DNA of 14,388 nt from an uncultured Clostridium sp. GTDB lineage: Bacteria > Bacillota_A > Clostridia > Lachnospirales > Lachnospiraceae. The notes beneath the pieces are model-generated. The model was given only the letters and a program-made list of their open reading frames with translations, was not told the origin of the DNA and ran no database searches. Positions 1,077 to 12,920 of this stretch are shown here, piece by piece. Location: positions 1 through 14,388 of the forward strand of contig CAMWKN010000005.1 in the NCBI GenBank assembly GCA_947174825.1, in the 5' to 3' direction. The position numbers were made by a program, and so were the translations under genes. Positions within the stretch are counted from its first letter, which is position 1. Each line of letters begins with the position of its first letter.

Positions 1077-1889
1077 ATGGAAGATAATAATTTAAAAATA
1101 CTGAGGATTCGGAATCTGGCGCAGAGTCTGTTCATTGTGCTGGGAGTGCTTCTGATACAGATGCTGTGTGCTATGCTGTGGGTGGCGGTAGCGATTTTGC
1201 ATAATGCAACAGATCCAGATACCAGGTTGATGGAGATGTCAGTTGCTAGTGCCTTACTGACAATTCTTTGGTGTTCCCTTTTTTATTATCAGTCTGACTG
1301 GAGGATCTTTGCATATAGGAGAGTGTGTTCGGTTAAGACTGTTGTATCCATTCTGGGATTGGGAATGGGGGGATGTATTATAGTCGCCTTGGTGTTATCA
1401 TTTTTACAGACTATTTTTCCGGCGGCATTTGCCCAATATAGCAAAATTATGGATCAGTTTGGACGGGGAGACTTGGTAATTACTTTGCTATATACCATAG
1501 GGATCGTACCAGTGATGGAGGAGATGGTTTTTCGAGGTGCGGTTTTGGATCGTTTGCGGCTAGCGTCATATCCATTTTGGACGGCAAATTTAATACAGGC
1601 AGCTTTGTTTGGGATTTACCATATGAATCTGATACAGGGAATCTATGCGTTTCTGTGGGGAATCCTGCTGGGTTTGATTTATCAGGCAACAGGTTCGATA
1701 TTGGCTGATATTCTGGCACACATGATCTTTAATACCACAAACTATCTCTTAATGTGGCTGTTTCCTGCAGGTAAGGCAGTATCCATTCCATTATATATTG
1801 GAATATTTTTCCTTGGAATTATTTTCTTTGTGGTGGGTTTGTGCTATACTGTACAAGCATATAGGACTAGAAATTCCACTAAGACATAA
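1077..1889 (+). CDS. CPBP-family intramembrane metalloprotease (Abi/CAAX-protease-like)
   Basis: A 270-residue, very hydrophobic protein with about seven or eight probable membrane segments. The three CPBP motifs are present in order: EExxxR as EEMVFRG (E148, E149, R153), FxxxH as FGIYH (F178, H182) and HxxxN as HMIFN (H215, N219). In this family (CAAX prenyl endopeptidase, bacteriocin-processing and bacteriocin-immunity proteins) these residues form the active site inside the membrane, so the protein is predicted to be an active membrane protease or an Abi-type protein. The ATG is preceded by AGGGGT with about 9 nt spacing. It stands alone between ftsZ and the amylase fusion, with 72 nt to the next gene. 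No bacteriocin or prenylated partner is visible, so the substrate is unknown. Confidence 0.88.
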   Translation: MEDNNLKILRIRNLAQSLFIVLGVLLIQMLCAMLWVAVAILHNATDPDTRLMEMSVASALLTILWCSLFYYQSDWRIFAYRRVCSVKTVVSILGLGMGGCIIVALVLSFLQTIFPAAFAQYSKIMDQFGRGDLVITLLYTIGIVPVMEEMVFRGAVLDRLRLASYPFWTANLIQAALFGIYHMNLIQGIYAFLWGILLGLIYQATGSILADILAHMIFNTTNYLLMWLFPAGKAVSIPLYIGIFFLGIIFFVVGLCYTVQAYRTRNSTKT

Positions 1890-1961: not shown

Positions 1962-4139
1962 ATGGCATGGTATGATCAGGCAGTATTTTATCATATTTAT
2001 CCACTGGGATTATGTGGATGTGCACACGAGAACACAGGAGTGGCAGAGTCTCATTTTGACCAGCTGCGGGATTGGGCAGCACATGCGGCGAGGATTAATT
2101 ATACCGCGATTTATATTGGACCTCTGTTTGAATCGGTAGGACATGGTTATGAGACTATCGATTATCGTAAAGTAGACTGTCGTCTGGGAACAAACGATGA
2201 TTTTAAAGATTTTGTTTCCTATTGCCATGAGATTGGATTGCGTGTCATTGTGGATGGTGTGTTTAATCATGTGGGCAGAGAGTTCTTTGCATTTAAAGAT
2301 GTACAGGAAAAGAGGGAAGCTTCCCCATATTGCAGCTGGTTCTGTAATTTGAATTTTGGCGGCAATAATGAATATAACGATGGATTTTCTTATGAAAACT
2401 GGGGCGGCTATAATTTGTTAGTTAAGTTAAACCAGCAAAACCCGGATGTGCAGAATTACTTATTTGATGCGATTCGCTTCTGGGTAACCGAATTTGATAT
2501 TGATGGAATACGTCTGGATGCTGCGGATGTTCTGGATCATGGATTGATGCACAACATGCGCCAGTTGACTGACAGCTTGAAACCGGATTTCTGGCTGATG
2601 GGCGAAGTGATTCATGGAGATTACAGCCGTTGGGTCAATGACCAGAAACTTCATTCTGTCACTAATTATGAATTGCACAAGGGACTGTATTCCGGTCACA
2701 ACGATCACAACTATTTTGAAATTGCCCATTCGATTAAGCGTCAGTTGGGAATCTGCGGTGATTTTCGTCTGTACACTTTTATGGACAACCATGATGTGGA
2801 GCGTATTTATTCCAAATTAAACAACAAGGAGCATATGTTCCTGGTTACTTTGTTAAATTATACGGTTTATGGCATTCCGTCTATGTACTATGGATCTGAG
2901 TTTGGCATTGATGGGAGAAAGGAGAAAGGTTCTGACTGGAACCTGCGACCTTATCTGGATATCCGTGATTATGAGAATGCAGAAACGGATAATGTGATTA
3001 CCGCATTGTGCAAAAAGCTGGGACAGTTCAAAAAAGACTATCAGGAGTTGACTTATGGACGGTATCAAGAGTTGGCACTGACCAATCGCCAGTTTGCTTA
3101 TGGTAGAATTTTGGATGATACTGCAATGGTTATGGTATTAAATAATGATGACAACCCGGCAACGGTGGAATTGAATGCACCGGTGGGGGCACCGGAAGCC
3201 ACAGATTTACTAGGAATTGCAGAGCGTGTTCAATATGAAAATGGACATTTGAGCGTGAGCTTACCGGCAAATCGAGGTACGGTTATTTATTTGGGATCTA
3301 AGGTGGCTGTACAGACGGATTTATCTGATCAGAAGGTAGATACCCCGGTATCGTCTACAGCAGAAAAACAGAATGCTTCTGCTGCCTTGGATTCCGGACA
3401 GAAGGATCAGCAGGAAAGTGTCCGTGAAAATGGACAGAGTGATGTGGCAAACAATGTCCCAGTTAATGGACAGAGTGGAATGGTAAACGATGTCCCGGTT
3501 GATGGACAGAATGACACACCATTAAAGGTTTTGATTATCAATGGATCGCCACATGCCAATGGTTCTACAGCGTTGGCTCTGCGTGAGGCAGAAAAAACTT
3601 TACAGGAGCAGGGCATTGAAACAGAGATGATTCAGGTGGGGCATCTGGATATCCGTAGCTGTATCGGCTGTGGACAGTGCGGCGGGAAGGGAAGTTGTGT
3701 CTTTGACGATATAGTGAATGAAACAGCGGCAAAATTTGAGCAGGCAGATGGGCTTCTGGTAGGTTCCCCAGTGTATTATGCTTCTGCTAACGCAACATTG
3801 GTGGCATTCCTGACCAGATTATTCTACAGCACACCATTTGACAAGCGAATGAAGGTAGGTGCAGCGGTGGTTTCTGCCAGAAGAGGAGGAAACTCTGCTA
3901 CATTCGATGAGCTGAATAAGTTCTTTACCATCAGCGGTATGCCAGTGGCATCCAGCCAGTACTGGAACAGTATTCACGGCAATAATGCCCAGGAAGCAGC
4001 GCAGGATGGTGAGGGATTACAGGTAATGCGTGCCCTGGGACGGAATATGGGATTCCTGGTTAAGAGCATTGCTCTTGGAAAACAGAAATATGGTTTGCCA
4101 AAGGAAGAGGAGCGCATTCGCACTAACTTTATCCGTTGA
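1962..4139 (+). CDS. Fusion: GH13 alpha-amylase-type enzyme plus flavodoxin-fold iron-sulfur flavoprotein domain
   Basis: This 725-residue protein combines two unrelated enzyme types. Residues 1 to about 445 form a GH13 glycoside hydrolase with all conserved regions: DGVFNH (98-103), GIRLDAAD with nucleophile D186, acid/base E215 in GEV, and DNHD with H277 and D278. A short C-terminal beta domain ends this part. Residues about 446-520 form a polar Gln/Asn/Asp/Ser linker with 12-residue repeats. From about 521, KVLIINGSPHANGST is the FMN-phosphate-binding start of the NADPH-dependent FMN reductase/flavodoxin_2 fold. C567-x2-C570-x2-C573-x5-C579 matches the cluster-binding spacing of iron-sulfur flavoproteins. 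GSPVYYASAN is a further flavin-contact segment. There is no signal peptide, so the protein is probably cytoplasmic and acts on imported maltodextrin-like oligosaccharides. The ATG follows AAGGAAGG (about 1945-1952). Substrate, electron donor and the reason for the fusion are not known. Both domains look intact. Confidence 0.9.
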   Translation: MAWYDQAVFYHIYPLGLCGCAHENTGVAESHFDQLRDWAAHAARINYTAIYIGPLFESVGHGYETIDYRKVDCRLGTNDDFKDFVSYCHEIGLRVIVDGVFNHVGREFFAFKDVQEKREASPYCSWFCNLNFGGNNEYNDGFSYENWGGYNLLVKLNQQNPDVQNYLFDAIRFWVTEFDIDGIRLDAADVLDHGLMHNMRQLTDSLKPDFWLMGEVIHGDYSRWVNDQKLHSVTNYELHKGLYSGHNDHNYFEIAHSIKRQLGICGDFRLYTFMDNHDVERIYSKLNNKEHMFLVTLLNYTVYGIPSMYYGSEFGIDGRKEKGSDWNLRPYLDIRDYENAETDNVITALCKKLGQFKKDYQELTYGRYQELALTNRQFAYGRILDDTAMVMVLNNDDNPATVELNAPVGAPEATDLLGIAERVQYENGHLSVSLPANRGTVIYLGSKVAVQTDLSDQKVDTPVSSTAEKQNASAALDSGQKDQQESVRENGQSDVANNVPVNGQSGMVNDVPVDGQNDTPLKVLIINGSPHANGSTALALREAEKTLQEQGIETEMIQVGHLDIRSCIGCGQCGGKGSCVFDDIVNETAAKFEQADGLLVGSPVYYASANATLVAFLTRLFYSTPFDKRMKVGAAVVSARRGGNSATFDELNKFFTISGMPVASSQYWNSIHGNNAQEAAQDGEGLQVMRALGRNMGFLVKSIALGKQKYGLPKEEERIRTNFIR
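3429..3521 (+). repeat. In-frame 36-nt tandem repeats encoding the interdomain linker
   Basis: Two full 36-nt units (3429-3464, 3465-3500) and a partial third (from 3501) encode NGQSDVANNVPV, NGQSGMVNDVPV and DGQNDTP. They lie in the linker between the GH13 and flavodoxin-like domains. Unit length is a multiple of three, so copy number could change without breaking the frame. The copies have already diverged at several positions. Confidence 0.85.
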
Positions 4140-4250: not shown

Positions 4251-4323
4251 AGATTTGGTAGTTAGTGATGTGTGGAAGGGGAATAGATTACAGCGCTTAT
4301 GCAGCGCAGAAATGAGGTTGATT

Positions 4324-5562
4324 ATGAAAGCAACACCCGTGAAGGGAACGAGGGATTATCTCCCGAAGGAAGTGCGTATTCGGGATTATCTGCAGGATGT
4401 GATTCGGCAGACATATGAAGAATCTGGCTTTGAACGGATTACCACACCGATTTTGGAGGATGCGGTTAATCTGGACAAAAGTGAGGGTGGGGAGAATCTG
4501 AATCTGATTTTTAAGGTGTTGAAACGAGGTCAAAAATTATTTTCCGCATTACAGAACGATTCTGTGACAGAGAAGGAACTGTCGGATATGGGACTTCGCT
4601 ATGATCTGACACTGCCTTTATCCCGCTACTATGCCAATAACCGGAATGCATTAATGGCGCCTTTTAAGGTAATACAGATGGATCGGGTTTATCGGGCGGA
4701 ACGTCCACAAAAGGGACGTTTACGGGAATTTATGCAGTGTGATATTGATATTATTGGTAATGCTTCTGCCGATGCGGAGGTAGAATTGATTCTGACTACC
4801 ACCAAGGCGTTGGAGAGAGTGGGCATTAAAGAGTATACGGTTAAAATCAACGACAGACGAATCCTGAAATCTATCTTTAGTTATGCAGGATTTTCTGAGG
4901 AGGATCATGAGAAACTGGCGATCATTTTTGATAAGCTGGATAAAATTGGGATTAATGGTGTGCAGGCTGAGTTGACAGAGAACGGTTTTGCAGAAGAAGC
5001 GGTTACCAAGTTTATTTGCTTATTTGAAAGTGGATCTCTGGATCTGGATACGGTTGCGAAGGTATGTGATGCGGAGTATATCACATCTTTGCAGTATATT
5101 ATGGATACGGTACAGACAGCATCTGGTGGAAATATTGCACTGGAGTTTACGCCTTCTCTGGTACGGGGACAGGGGTATTATACTGGTACCATCTTTGAAG
5201 TGGAAGCACAGGGATACAGCGGAGCTGTTGCCGGTGGTGGACGTTATGATAATCTGATTGGCAAGTTTCTGAATGAGGATATTCCGGCAGTAGGATTTTC
5301 CATCGGTTTTGAACGGATTTTCGGTATTTTGATGGAGCAGGAATATACCATTCCAGGGCAGAAAAAACGTATAGCTGTCTTTTATGATACAGATACTTAT
5401 GCACAGGCGCTTGCCTATGCTGAGGAATTGCGGCAGGAGTATCTGGTATCGGTAATTGCCAGACCAAAGAAACTGGGTAAGTTTTTGAATCGCCTGGAGT
5501 CGGATGGGTATGATGGCTTTGCTGTTTATGGTCAGGAAGATGGTGTGAAATTATTTTCATAA
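4324..5562 (+). CDS. hisS: Histidyl-tRNA synthetase family protein, short form
   Basis: A 412-residue class II aminoacyl-tRNA synthetase-type protein, predicted to charge tRNA-His in the cytoplasm. It opens with the typical TPVKGTRDYLPKE. Motif 2 is YRAERPQKGRLREFMQCD (123-140, with R124). The histidine-specific segment LVRGQGYYTGTIFE keeps the substrate-binding arginine (R281). Motif 3 is GGGRYDNL with GFSIGFERI (E330, R331). A short anticodon-binding-like domain ends at KLFS. Retention of the motif 2 and LVRG arginines argues against a HisZ-type regulatory subunit, which usually loses them. The C-terminal domain is shorter than in E. coli HisRS, as I recall for some Clostridia. ATG 4324 is chosen because GAGG (4314-4317) lies 6 nt upstream and the family N-terminus starts there; upstream in-frame codons reach into the structured spacer. 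No his genes are nearby. A paralogue with another role remains possible. Confidence 0.8.
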   Translation: MKATPVKGTRDYLPKEVRIRDYLQDVIRQTYEESGFERITTPILEDAVNLDKSEGGENLNLIFKVLKRGQKLFSALQNDSVTEKELSDMGLRYDLTLPLSRYYANNRNALMAPFKVIQMDRVYRAERPQKGRLREFMQCDIDIIGNASADAEVELILTTTKALERVGIKEYTVKINDRRILKSIFSYAGFSEEDHEKLAIIFDKLDKIGINGVQAELTENGFAEEAVTKFICLFESGSLDLDTVAKVCDAEYITSLQYIMDTVQTASGGNIALEFTPSLVRGQGYYTGTIFEVEAQGYSGAVAGGGRYDNLIGKFLNEDIPAVGFSIGFERIFGILMEQEYTIPGQKKRIAVFYDTDTYAQALAYAEELRQEYLVSVIARPKKLGKFLNRLESDGYDGFAVYGQEDGVKLFS

Positions 5563-8808: not shown

Positions 8809-9294
8809 TTGACACATCAGGAAATTGCCAGGCTGGATGAAATCCTGCAGGCACATGACTACAACAGTACCTTATTGATTGCAATTATGCAGGATATTCA
8901 AAAGGTATACCGGTATCTGCCGGAGGAGGCATTGTGTTATATTGCCAAGAAACTAAAGCTGAGTGAAGCCAAAATTTATGGGGTTGCTACATTCTATGAA
9001 AACTTTTCATTGGAGCCGAAAGGAAAGTATGTCATTAAAATCTGTGACGGCACGGCATGCCATGTCCGTCATTCTGTTCCGATACTGGAAGAATTCCGGA
9101 AAACTTTGGGAGTGAGCGAGGAAAAGACCACCACAGATGATATGCTGTTTACGGTGGAGACGGTTTCCTGCTTGGGAGCATGTGGACTGGCACCAGTCTG
9201 TACCGTCAATGACCACGTTCATCCGGCTATGACACCGGAGAAGGCAAGAGAATTGATACAGACGTTAAAGGAGGAAGCGAACGGTGAGAATTAA
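8809..9294 (+). CDS. hydC: NuoE-like [2Fe-2S] subunit of NAD-linked [FeFe] hydrogenase
   Basis: A 161-residue thioredoxin-like [2Fe-2S] protein, homologous to NuoE of complex I and to HydC/HymA of multimeric [FeFe] hydrogenases. The cluster ligands are C79 and C84 (CDGTAC) and C121 and C125 (CLGAC). The helical N-terminal part (LLIAIMQDIQKVYRYLPEE... IYGVATFY) is typical of the family. It is predicted to pass electrons within a soluble cytoplasmic complex with the two following gene products. The start codon is TTG. Its last 11 bases overlap hydB, which implies translational coupling. The same fold occurs in formate dehydrogenase complexes, but the adjacent hydrogenase gene settles the assignment. 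Confidence 0.92.
   Translation: MTHQEIARLDEILQAHDYNSTLLIAIMQDIQKVYRYLPEEALCYIAKKLKLSEAKIYGVATFYENFSLEPKGKYVIKICDGTACHVRHSVPILEEFRKTLGVSEEKTTTDDMLFTVETVSCLGACGLAPVCTVNDHVHPAMTPEKARELIQTLKEEANGEN
9267..9274 (+). promoter_or_regulatory. Ribosome binding site deciding the GTG start of hydB
   Basis: AAAGGAGG, inside the 3' end of hydC, lies 9 nt before GTG 9284. It supports a GTG start that overlaps the hydC stop codon by 11 bases. Confidence 0.75.
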
Positions 9295-11173
9295 TACCAG
9301 AGAAGAGCTGATTGCAAAGCAGAAAGAATATAAAGCGTCCTTAAACAGCCAGAAAAAGCAGATTCTGATTTGTGCCGGAACCGGATGTGTGGCAGGCGGT
9401 TCGCTGCAGATCTATGATCGGATGAAGGAAATCATTGAGGAAAAGGGATTGCGCTGTGCTGTGCTTTTGGAAAAAGAACCTCATGATGAGAGTGTAGGAC
9501 TGAAAAAAAGCGGCTGCCATGGCTTCTGTGAGATGGGGCCTTTGCTTCGCATTGATCCTATGGGATGGCTTTATGTCAAGGTGAAAGTAGAGGATTGCGA
9601 GGAAATTATCGAGAAAAGTATTATTCATGATGAGGTGGTAGAACATCTGGTTTATCAGGATCATACCTTAAAGTCTTATGTGAAACAGGAAGATATTCCA
9701 TTTTATAAAAAACAGACGCGAATTGCACTGGAATACTGCGGTCGGATCAATGCAGAGAGCATTGCGGAATACATTGCGCTGGGAGGATACAGTGCAGTGG
9801 CAAAGGCATTGTTTGACATGACGCCACAGGAGATCGTGGATGAAATCAGTGAAGCTTCCCTGCGAGGACGTGGTGGCGGTGGCTTCCCTGCGGGAAGAAA
9901 ATGGCAGCAGGTATTGAACCAGCCAGAAAAAGAACGCTATGTTGTCTGTAATGGTGACGAGGGCGATCCGGGTGCCTTCATGGATCGTTCCATGATGGAG
10001 GGAGAACCTCACAGAGTGATCGAGGGAATGTTGATCGCCGCCATTGCCACTCAGGCGCATCACGGTTATATTTACGTCCGTGCTGAATATCCGTTGGCGG
10101 TGGAACGATTACAAAAGGCAATTGATAAAGCATTAGACCGGGGATTGCTAGGAGAGAATATTCTGGGATCCGGTTTTGATTTTGACTTACATATCAGCCA
10201 GGGCGCCGGTGCTTTTGTTTGTGGCGAGGGTAGTGCGCTGACTACTTCTATCGAAGGAAACCGTGGTATGCCACGAGTGAAACCACCACGTACGGTAGAG
10301 CATGGTCTGTTTGATAAACCGACCGTTTTAAATAACGTAGAGACATTCTGTAATGTGCCACCGATCATACTGAATGGTGCAGAGTGGTACAAGGGATATG
10401 GACCGGATAAGAATCATGGTACCAAGGCATTTGCCTTGACCGGTAATGTCCAGAATACGGGACTGATTGAGGTGCCGATGGGAACAACACTACGAGAAGT
10501 AATCTTTGATATCGGTGGCGGTGTCAAAGGGGGAGACTTCAAGGCGGTGCAGATCGGTGGTCCGTCCGGTGGATGCCTGTGTATCAGTGCCACCGAAGAT
10601 CATTTGGATATGCAGCTGGATTTTGATTCCCTGAAAAAAGTGGGGGCTATGATCGGATCTGGTGGTCTGGTGGTCATGAATGACAAGAGTTGTATGGTAG
10701 AGGTGGCAAGGTTCTTTATGAACTTTACCCAGAATGAGTCCTGCGGTAAATGCGTTCCATGTAGAGAAGGAACCAAACGAATGTTGGAGCTGCTGACGGA
10801 TATTACCGAAGGCAGAGGTACCATGGAGCATATTGAGCTGCTGGAAAAGCTGGCTGACACCATTTCGGCTACGGCTCTCTGTGGTTTGGGCAAAACTGCT
10901 GCCTCTCCGGTGATCAGTACCCTGAAATATTTCCGGGAAGAATATATTGCCCATGTGGTGGAGAAAAAATGTCCGGCAGGGCAGTGCAAGGCATTGATGA
11001 CATTACGAATTGATCCGGAACTGTGTCGTGGATGTACCAAATGTGCCAGAATGTGCCCGGTAGGGGCAATCTCTGGCAAGGTCAAAGAGCCTCATGTGAT
11101 TGATCCGGCAAAATGTATTAAATGTGGCGCATGTAAAGACGGTTGCAGCTTTGGAGCCGTTGTAGAGGAATAA
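9284..11173 (+). CDS. hydB: NuoF-like NAD(H)/FMN subunit of [FeFe] hydrogenase
   Basis: A 629-residue flavoprotein that handles NADH. An N-terminal thioredoxin-like [2Fe-2S] domain has C30, C35, C78 and C82. The NuoF core follows: the NADH/FMN site GRGGGGFPAG (195-204), VCNGDEGDPGAF, and GAGAFVCGEGSAL with EGNRGMPR. The NuoF [4Fe-4S] site is C487-x2-C490-x2-C493 with C533. The C-terminus carries a two-cluster ferredoxin domain: C581, C584, C587, C591 and C611, C614, C617, C621. This layout is that of HydB of bifurcating hydrogenases, in which the FMN is the proposed site where NADH, ferredoxin and H2 electrons meet. The GTG start overlaps hydC, and hydA follows after 19 nt. NADP-reducing relatives (HndC) share the layout, so the pyridine nucleotide is inferred. 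Confidence 0.95.
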   Translation: MRINTREELIAKQKEYKASLNSQKKQILICAGTGCVAGGSLQIYDRMKEIIEEKGLRCAVLLEKEPHDESVGLKKSGCHGFCEMGPLLRIDPMGWLYVKVKVEDCEEIIEKSIIHDEVVEHLVYQDHTLKSYVKQEDIPFYKKQTRIALEYCGRINAESIAEYIALGGYSAVAKALFDMTPQEIVDEISEASLRGRGGGGFPAGRKWQQVLNQPEKERYVVCNGDEGDPGAFMDRSMMEGEPHRVIEGMLIAAIATQAHHGYIYVRAEYPLAVERLQKAIDKALDRGLLGENILGSGFDFDLHISQGAGAFVCGEGSALTTSIEGNRGMPRVKPPRTVEHGLFDKPTVLNNVETFCNVPPIILNGAEWYKGYGPDKNHGTKAFALTGNVQNTGLIEVPMGTTLREVIFDIGGGVKGGDFKAVQIGGPSGGCLCISATEDHLDMQLDFDSLKKVGAMIGSGGLVVMNDKSCMVEVARFFMNFTQNESCGKCVPCREGTKRMLELLTDITEGRGTMEHIELLEKLADTISATALCGLGKTAASPVISTLKYFREEYIAHVVEKKCPAGQCKALMTLRIDPELCRGCTKCARMCPVGAISGKVKEPHVIDPAKCIKCGACKDGCSFGAVVEE

Positions 11174-11192
11174 GAGAAAGGAGGATCGTGCA

Positions 11193-12920
11193 ATGAGTAC
11201 AAATACAACCAAAAAATACATGGTAATTGACGGGATTAGAACGGAATTTACCGATGAAAAAAATATATTGCAGGTAATACATAAAGCAGGCATTCATGTT
11301 CCGACTTTCTGTTATTATTCAGATATGTCAATCTATGGAGCCTGTCGTATGTGTGTGGTGGAAGATGAGAGAGGTGGGATTATTGCCTCCTGTTCCACAC
11401 CACCCAAAGATAAAATGGTTATCAAAACCAATACATCCAAGCTGCATCAGCATCGGAAGATGATATTGGAGCTGCTGCTGGCGTCCCATTGCAGAGATTG
11501 TACCACCTGTGACAAGAATGGAAACTGCCGTCTGCAGATGCTGGCATCCCGTTTCCATTTGACGGATGTAAGATTCCCGAACACTCATCCGGAGAGATGT
11601 ATTGATAATTCCTCTCTATCCATTGTCAGAGATCCTAGCAAATGTATTCTCTGCGGCGACTGTGTCCGGATGTGTAATGAGGTACAGCATGTAGGAGCCA
11701 TTGATTTTGCCCATCGTGGAGCAAATATGGTGGTAAGTCCGGCATTTAACCGCAAGATTGCTGAGACGGACTGTGTTAACTGTGGACAATGTGCCGCTGT
11801 CTGTCCGACGGCTGCCATCACCATCAAGAATGATCTCAAGGGAGTTTGGAATGCCCTTTATGCCCCAGATAAGAGAGTGGTGGTACAGATTGCACCGGCT
11901 GTCCGGGTGGCTGTGGGAGAAGAGTTTGGACTGGCTCCTGGCAAAAACAGTGTGGGAAAAATCTTTACGGCACTGCGGATGCTGGGCTTTGATACGGTTT
12001 TTGACACCAGTTTTGGCGCAGACCTTACGGTAAAGGAAGAGGCAGAGGAACTGGTTTATAAATTGGAAAATGGGGAGAAGAAATATCCTTTGGGTAATTC
12101 TATGCCACTGTTTACCTCATGCTGTCCGGCATGGATCCGTTTTGTGGAGACCAAACATCCGGAGCTGTTACCATATATTTCCACCTGTAAATCCCCGATG
12201 GAGATGTTTGGCGCGGTGTTAAAGGAATACTATAAGCCGGCAGATCAGGAAGCGGGAATTGAAACGGTGTCGGTAGCTGTTATGCCTTGTGTGGCAAAGA
12301 AATACGAAGCCAGTCGGGAGGAATTCCGCAGGGACAATGTGCCGGATGTGGACTATGTGATTACGACGAAAGAACTGATCGCCATGATTAAAGAGCTGGG
12401 AATCCAGTTTAATGAGATCGAGCCTGGTGCTCCGGATATGCCGTTCTCCATTAGTTCCGGTGCTGGTGTGATCTTTGGTGTGACCGGTGGTGTGATGGAG
12501 GCAGCACTGCGCCATGTGGCAGAGAAGAATAACGAAGCCCTACGGGAAATCGAATATTCTGGTATCCGTGGATTGGAGGGAACCAAGATCGCTGAAGTGG
12601 AAATTGGTGGCAAGACACTCCGAGTGGGCGTGGTTAACGGTCTGGGAAATGCCGAGGAGCTCATTGAAAAACTGCAGCGTAGCGAGGAGAAACTGGACTT
12701 CGTGGAAGTAATGGCATGTCCATACGGATGTATCGGAGGAGCGGGTCAGCCATTTGGTTATCAGGCAGTGAAACAGGAGAGGGCAAATGGTATGTACAAG
12801 GCAGATAAATCTGCTATTGTGAAGCGTGCCGAGGAAAATCCAACGCTGTTGAATCTGTATGAAAACGGTATGTTGCATGATCGGGCACATGAACTATTGC
12901 ATGTGCATTATGGTAAATAA
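11193..12920 (+). CDS. hydA: [FeFe] hydrogenase catalytic subunit
   Basis: A 575-residue enzyme with the H-cluster, producing or oxidising H2. The N-terminal [2Fe-2S] domain has C40, C51, C54 and C67. The His-ligated [4Fe-4S] site has H99, C103, C106 and C112, and two ferredoxin [4Fe-4S] motifs follow (CILCGDC and CVNCGQC). H-domain motifs are L1 TSCCPAW (C310 for proton transfer, C311 as ligand), L2 MPCVAKKYE (C366) and L3 ACPYGCIGGAGQP (C509, C513). All expected ligands are present. L3 has Tyr and Ala where CpI-type enzymes have Gly and Gly. It lacks the extra C-terminal [2Fe-2S] domain of Thermotoga HydA. With HydB and HydC it should form a trimeric cytoplasmic complex coupling H2 to NADH and ferredoxin. 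AGAAAGGAGG lies 8 nt before the ATG. The maturases HydEFG are not in the window. Confidence 0.96.
   Translation: MSTNTTKKYMVIDGIRTEFTDEKNILQVIHKAGIHVPTFCYYSDMSIYGACRMCVVEDERGGIIASCSTPPKDKMVIKTNTSKLHQHRKMILELLLASHCRDCTTCDKNGNCRLQMLASRFHLTDVRFPNTHPERCIDNSSLSIVRDPSKCILCGDCVRMCNEVQHVGAIDFAHRGANMVVSPAFNRKIAETDCVNCGQCAAVCPTAAITIKNDLKGVWNALYAPDKRVVVQIAPAVRVAVGEEFGLAPGKNSVGKIFTALRMLGFDTVFDTSFGADLTVKEEAEELVYKLENGEKKYPLGNSMPLFTSCCPAWIRFVETKHPELLPYISTCKSPMEMFGAVLKEYYKPADQEAGIETVSVAVMPCVAKKYEASREEFRRDNVPDVDYVITTKELIAMIKELGIQFNEIEPGAPDMPFSISSGAGVIFGVTGGVMEAALRHVAEKNNEALREIEYSGIRGLEGTKIAEVEIGGKTLRVGVVNGLGNAEELIEKLQRSEEKLDFVEVMACPYGCIGGAGQPFGYQAVKQERANGMYKADKSAIVKRAEENPTLLNLYENGMLHDRAHELLHVHYGK

Follow-up and report, generated by a model that had tools for sequence, protein, structure and literature searches.

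A GH13-type protein with diverse fusion partners, here an iron-sulfur flavoprotein-like domain

The fused gene and its domains

The window, by which we mean the whole 14,388-nucleotide stretch of DNA that was analysed, comes from a gut-type Clostridia bacterium and carries a gene whose product joins a GH13 domain, a low-complexity linker and an FMN_red domain in one chain (Table 1). A preliminary description, made from the sequence alone, had read it as one uninterrupted frame (1962–4139) with an intact GH13 catalytic triad, a flexible repeat linker, a flavodoxin-fold domain with C-x2-C-x2-C-x5-C spacing and no signal peptide, and our analysis bears out each of these points. In Pfam searches with the 725-aa protein, Alpha-amylase (PF00128, 3e-44, residues 45–323) and FMN_red (1.1e-25, residues 522–670) scored above their curated cut-offs; Malt_amylase_C (22.3 bits) and Flavodoxin_2 (25.2 bits) fell below theirs (27 in both cases). 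Both the triad (D186, E215, D278) and the four cysteines are invariant in 16/16 aligned rows. The linker contains a 36-bp repeat and is modelled with low pLDDT; the barrel begins right at the protein N-terminus (MAWYDQAVFYHIYP), where inspection by eye revealed no signal peptide.

Table 1. Features of the fused gene and its immediate neighbours (roles of the Asp-Glu-Asp triad residues assigned after a passage in PMC9781549).
Feature	Position	Strand	Evidence
CPBP/Rce1-like membrane protease, upstream neighbour	1077..1889	+	Pfam Rce1-like 2.3e-20; relatives upstream of GH13 in L001, L002, L006
GH13–linker–FMN_red fused gene	1962..4139	+	single open frame without stop, 725 aa; Pfam; fusion kept in P0002–P0013
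GH13 catalytic barrel and C-terminal beta domain, residues 1–445	1962..3296	+	Pfam, PDB sequence matches, Foldseek on model
D186, catalytic nucleophile, region GIRLDAADV	2517..2519	+	invariant in 16/16 rows of alignment A1
E215, proton donor, GEVIHGD	2604..2606	+	invariant in 16/16 rows of alignment A1
D278, transition-state stabiliser, DNHDVER	2793..2795	+	invariant in 16/16 rows of alignment A1
Low-complexity linker, residues about 446–518	3297..3515	+	low identity among 13 fusions, low pLDDT
36-bp tandem repeat, 2.7 copies, within linker	3419..3514	+	
FMN_red / iron-sulfur flavoprotein-like domain, residues 519–725	3516..4136	+	Pfam; model of domain alone; flavodoxin-fold matches
Cysteine motif C567-x2-C570-x2-C573-x5-C579	3660..3698	+	invariant in 16/16 rows of A1 and 26/26 rows of A3
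hisS, downstream neighbour, start uncertain	4255..5562	+	by eye; control query taken from 4327

An AlphaFold2 model of the whole chain, built on an alignment of 46 sequences (mean pLDDT 79.2, pTM 0.63), consists of two mostly confident regions around an unstructured stretch (residues 456–510, pLDDT of about 30 over most of it), with further short low-confidence stretches at 135–151 and 312–328. The model and its Foldseek matches contain a TIM barrel followed by a C-terminal beta domain, and the FMN_red domain modelled alone reached a pLDDT of 84 and gave flavodoxin-fold matches.

The best PDB matches of the GH13 part, by sequence and by Foldseek, were the cyclomaltodextrinase, neopullulanase and maltogenic amylase structures 1EA9 (E 1.7e-52), TVA II and 1J0H, with the likeness extending over the barrel and the C domain. 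These three we take to represent the GH13_20 group. Bacterial members of that group are described in a passage of PMC9781549 as having an N-terminal CBM34, and the neopullulanase group as having MPKLN in region V; the window protein, in contrast, gave no Pfam match to CBM34 at E up to 0.1 and reads LVKLN at residues 153–157, and since it has neither the module nor the motif, we do not place it in GH13_20. The Nostoc punctiforme debranching enzyme NPDE (2WKG) and Thermotoga neapolitana AmyB (4GKL) are compact GH13 proteins resembling it in size (Foldseek TMt 0.75 for 2WKG and 0.80–0.81 for 4GKL), but they differ from it in having only 18–25% identity and solved chains of 419–486 residues, which at this length hold no fused domain.

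The second domain has the fold (flavodoxin-like/FMN_red) and the compact cysteine motif (C567/570/573/579) of iron-sulfur flavoproteins (ISFs), for which the pattern is given as CX2CX2CX5–7C in a passage of PMC3164229; unlike them, it is joined to a glycoside hydrolase. Its best sequence match was 7d38, titled flavone reductase, and no ISF-titled entry was present among the sequence or fold matches listed.

Farther along the window (8809–12920, + strand), Pfam identifies genes for a thioredoxin-like 2Fe-2S subunit, a NuoF-like subunit and an [FeFe] hydrogenase, a three-gene set with the appearance of an ordinary NAD-linked hydrogenase of clostridia.

Conservation of the GH13–FMN_red fusion

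A search for relatives over about 5.8 billion proteins, in which 7994 candidates were scored and the best 120 listed, recovered among the matches listed 14 GH13–FMN_red proteins beside the window's own, at 98% or more query coverage and 65–90% identity. Two of these (P0014, P0015) were left out because inspection by eye suggested that they are chimeric with P0010; among the matches listed there are thus 13 full-length clusters without a chimeric look, including the window's, which is how far the fusion, whose reach the preliminary description had left to database searches, was found to be conserved. Mean pairwise identity across the 13 is 0.89 in the barrel (1–330), 0.68 in the C domain (331–445) and 0.80 in the FMN_red domain; in the linker, which ranges from 53 to 103 residues, it is 12%. 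The P0010 cluster alone comprises 873 member sequences and is represented on a contig of 99 kb. The GH13–FMN_red fusion is real and conserved, and a local assembly error behind it is very unlikely. The preliminary description had stated that its reading would fall if relatives consistently encoded two separate proteins and the linker contained an assembly error: FMN_red is indeed often encoded as a protein of its own in relatives, but the objection of an assembly error fails because the fusion recurs in diverged clusters.

Stand-alone relatives of about 205 aa for the most part, at 71–78% identity, fill the search made with the FMN_red domain only (best 120 of 8000 scored). When the search with the FMN_red part was restricted to proteins of 0.55–1.75 times the full length, 54 proteins were obtained, of which 18 are the GH13 fusion or its pieces (P0001–P0016, P0038, P0121), five contain a sigma-54 activator, one (P0157) is a misjoined other GH13, and 30 have other partners. 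No full-length GH13–FMN_red fusion was found in the drawn genomes (397, 4 and 392, in overlapping draws) or in the best 80 of 585 public loci. Clostridium sp. OM05-9BH nevertheless probably has the fusion, whether intact or broken, since its protein P0184, titled flavodoxin family protein, matches residues 442–722 of P0010 at 94%.

Other partners of the same GH13

In a draw of 397 Lachnospiraceae-family genomes, made from the family of genome G001 (title of its locus L001: uncultured Lachnospiraceae), at least 126 contain the GH13 at E values up to 1.1e-139; it is also present in Faecalibacterium. Comparison of its ends in 80 public loci and further drawn genomes showed that the GH13 has, in related genomes, ten further types of partner supported by Pfam, or eleven with FMN_red. 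Seven are attached at the C-terminus. Above the Pfam cut-offs are a glyoxalase (L001); a regulator with HTH_11 and 3H domains in Faecalibacterium (L020, 1847–3772; L025, 6001–7923), the second of these loci belonging to the named strain Faecalibacterium gallinarum JCM 17207; and, in one genome each, an HD_3 hydrolase (L139), the glycogen synthase GlgA (Glyco_transf_5; L135, 528–3533) and a hexapeptide transferase (Hexapep; L131). The HTH_11–3H partner is presumably NiaR-like. Also above the Pfam cut-offs are a D-2-hydroxyacid dehydrogenase (2-Hacid_dh) in L113, to which L125 can be added by 82% similarity, and, in one genome, the branching enzyme GlgB, recognizable as CBM_48 and a second barrel (L130, 3998–7615). 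At the N-terminus, Pfam identified Maf in two genomes of one genus (L154, 1498–3492, and L155, 1492–3618, both on the − strand; L008, which shares its contig with L154, bears the title uncultured Roseburia sp.), NUDIX in one genome (L117) and, in another (L128), an Epimerase that is NAD-dependent and by eye resembles GalE. A HicB-like C-terminal part in L005 stayed below the Pfam cut-off (21.8 versus 27 bits), the 119 additional C-terminal residues of the L132 protein have no assigned family, and the short C-terminal part in L138 is helix-turn-helix-like by eye. The N-terminal part in L137 has a TetR-like look, for which Pfam gave no match at 0.001, and it was discarded as a candidate.

When sorted by their ends, 202 GH13 rows comprised 81 that match the pattern of a conserved tail (about 45 aa), 54 tailless ones, 26 with glyoxalase, 16 whose C domain contains an insert, 13 with FMN_red and 12 others including one cut by a contig end; these counts mirror how the rows were gathered, not natural frequencies, and rows from different loci may come from one genome.

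The tail is an element of about 45 aa at the C-terminus that follows a highly variable linker (e.g., L043:7585-7746) and is similar in 80 other GH13 rows. By eye its consensus is MTVEELQ-AIL-KM--NGPVTDQM----V--N--HDSLVNW-KSF or a close variant; it has no Pfam match (best E 0.16), and a second carrier was not found below E 0.5 in 8 genomes. The long insert, which is helix-rich by eye, lies in the C-terminal beta domain before the last strands (16 rows: L003, L004, L009, L011–L013 and others).

As a control, stop-to-stop frame lengths were compared in one draw (397 genomes) for 126 GH13 rows (E up to 1.1e-139), the best 150 hisS rows and the best 150 glgB rows. Frames extended 100 aa or more beyond the domain in 49/126 GH13 rows versus 3/150 for hisS and 5/150 for glgB, one of the last five being a GH13–GlgB fusion itself. 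The long frame of G019 reads as 489 aa, so that 48 GH13 cases stay. Because inserts and the short tail make up many of them, this control captures added sequence and not only enzyme fusions.

Gene neighbourhood

FtsZ-like (by eye) and CPBP genes lie upstream of the GH13 in the window, in L001 and L002, both glyoxalase fusions, and in the tailless L006; hisS follows downstream in the window and, on the opposite strand, in L002. These shared neighbours imply that the partner slot at related loci is filled by FMN_red, by glyoxalase or by nothing. The nearest of the 397 drawn genomes by hisS, G001 (79%) and G292 (78%), both carry the glyoxalase fusion.

Linkage with glgB is frequent: this gene lies on the contig and strand of the GH13, with 77–1012 bp between the matches, in at least 45 of the 126 listed GH13 genomes, a lower bound that comes from the 46 glgB rows sharing the GH13's contig number. 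One of the 45 (G075) is a fused GH13–GlgB pair, leaving a separate downstream glgB in at least 44 of the 126. This frequent linkage suggests a role of the GH13 in intracellular glycogen or maltodextrin turnover. Eight unfused Faecalibacterium loci have a 3H/HTH_11 gene starting 36–196 bp past the GH13 match. For FMN_red, adjacency was seen within the fetched loci in L114 only, where a separate gene (57% identity) begins about 240 bp past the GH13 gene; its product falls outside the clade of fused domains, on a branch that is long, and, not being close to the fused domain, documents adjacency rather than ancestry. A direct ancestor of the window's arrangement was not found in these loci. In G001, G004, G403 and G405 the GH13 and the close stand-alone FMN_red gene are on separate contigs. 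No unfused neighbour gene corresponding to the glyoxalase, HD, HicB-like or 2-hydroxyacid dehydrogenase partners turned up in the fetched loci, and no neighbour cluster occurred in more than 13/172 loci, apart from one GH13 cluster that had absorbed glgB (neighbours in 5 of the loci were covered by tblastn).

Trees of the two halves of the fusion

On a FastTree phylogeny of 201 GH13 rows, with 62 of its 198 inner branches drawn open, the tail states (14 in number) need 27 changes; L057, cut by a contig end, and rows with identical first 445 residues were excluded. Excluded from the trees and identity counts were also P0014 and P0015 (chimeric look), P0016, P0038 and P0121 (partial), and P0157 and P0158 (misjoined). 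In an IQ-TREE phylogeny of 51 GH13 rows, the fusion P0013 groups inside the glyoxalase-fusion clade (support 99/95), and a tree that unites the 13 FMN_red fusions by their GH13 part into a single clade is rejected (p-AU 6e-5). In the tree of FMN_red domains, in contrast, these 13 fusions fall together in a single clade, apart from 32 other rows (100/98; 200/200 bootstrap trees), once P0249, L153, P0125 and P0130 are removed. A rejection of this clade (p 0.0005) was traced to P0249 having been scored as a stand-alone protein, when it is a fragment of the fusion P0010 (99% identical to residues 523–722), and was set aside.

The trees suggest that partners have been exchanged at least once in the GH13 family, and the simplest reading of their conflict is that a C-terminal module was exchanged at the linker. 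That P0013 is a chimera is less likely, given the length of its FMN_red branch (0.43) and the 14 members of its cluster.

A probable recurrently fused enzyme

The explanation that we consider probable is a glycogen- or maltodextrin-type GH13 that has been joined to other genes repeatedly, in this case to an ISF-like domain that works independently. It would be a cytoplasmic enzyme acting on an alpha-glucan (maltodextrin or glycogen), connected by a flexible tether to a putatively cofactor-binding, ISF-like flavin redox domain, with each domain most likely acting on its own. The C-terminus of the GH13, and sometimes its N-terminus, would repeatedly capture other genes, some of them downstream neighbours, through stop loss or recombination, and the linker would be the site of partner exchange. 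We prefer a recurrently fused enzyme to a dedicated redox switch because the GH13 proteins of relatives carry many unrelated partners, and independent domains to redox control because the partners are interchangeable and the tether is not conserved. Conservation across many clusters is a property of the FMN_red fusion and of the glyoxalase fusion alike, and selection for a joint role may lie behind it; a selected tether function for the fusion is possible.

More tentatively, the GH13 could be pictured as a carrier whose ends are reused to attach unrelated modules, possibly docked on glycogen and swapped at disordered linker "sockets"; on the same tentative footing, these modules would be metabolic and regulatory, covering redox, detoxification, nucleotide and glycogen-building functions. 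The narrower proposal that the carrier docks its partners onto glycogen or other alpha-glucan particles, and so concentrates them there, strikes us as rather unlikely. It would fit with two of the partners being glycogen enzymes (GlgA in L135, GlgB in L130) and glgB being a common neighbour, with the long flexible linker of the FMN_red partner, and with the conserved element of about 45 aa behind a variable linker in 81/202 GH13 rows; however, it is not apparent how the Maf, 3H/HTH_11, glyoxalase, HD and ISF-like partners would relate to glycogen, glycogen binding by the GH13 is itself putative, and gene neighbourhood alone could account for the GlgB partner.

Returning to the recurrently fused enzyme, the nearest precedents are the alpha-glucan enzyme fusions TreS-Mak, GlgA-GlgB of some chlamydiae and GlgB-MalQ of Neisseria (PMC11046441), which, like some of the partners found here, unite enzymes of the same pathway in one chain. 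As presented in a passage of that source, they are fixed pairs within one pathway, whereas the present GH13 family has many partners, most of them outside glucan metabolism. Our searches of titles and abstract openings, with most subscription journals outside their scope, found neither a GH13–flavodoxin fusion nor such partner variety, in agreement with the preliminary description, which knew of no characterised enzyme with a GH13–ISF-like architecture. Eleven partner types on one enzyme family amount to a natural experiment in bacterial gene fusion and domain swapping, and draw attention to a glucan enzyme, often adjoining glgB, in Lachnospiraceae-family genomes and Faecalibacterium. If the partners dock on glycogen, this would be a new mode of organising bacterial metabolism; otherwise, the family shows with unusual clarity how permissive the ends of a protein can be.

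The redox-controlled glycosidase that was considered conceivable in the preliminary description, in which the ISF-like domain would sense redox state and regulate, or be regulated by, glucan breakdown, now appears improbable. The cysteine motif is invariant among the fusions compared and the key residues of both domains are intact, but none of the observations connects flavin or cluster state with glycosidase activity, the same GH13 occurs with many other partners or none, stand-alone FMN_red relatives are many, and the interchangeable partners are matched by a non-conserved linker, predicted to be a disordered tether in a model of modest whole-chain pTM (0.63). That the fusions are assembly or clustering chimeras is scarcely credible: P0014, P0015, P0157 and P0158 do look misjoined by eye, and 27 of the 30 FMN_red proteins with other partners rest on one contig, yet the 13 full-length clusters are diverged, P0010 has its 873 members and 99-kb contig, and the 3H/HTH_11 fusion is present in the named Faecalibacterium gallinarum strain.

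The FMN_red family also has a second recurrent architecture, in which it is combined with a PrpR_N/sigma-54 activator (P0140–P0143 and P0145), the match covering 69% of the domain.
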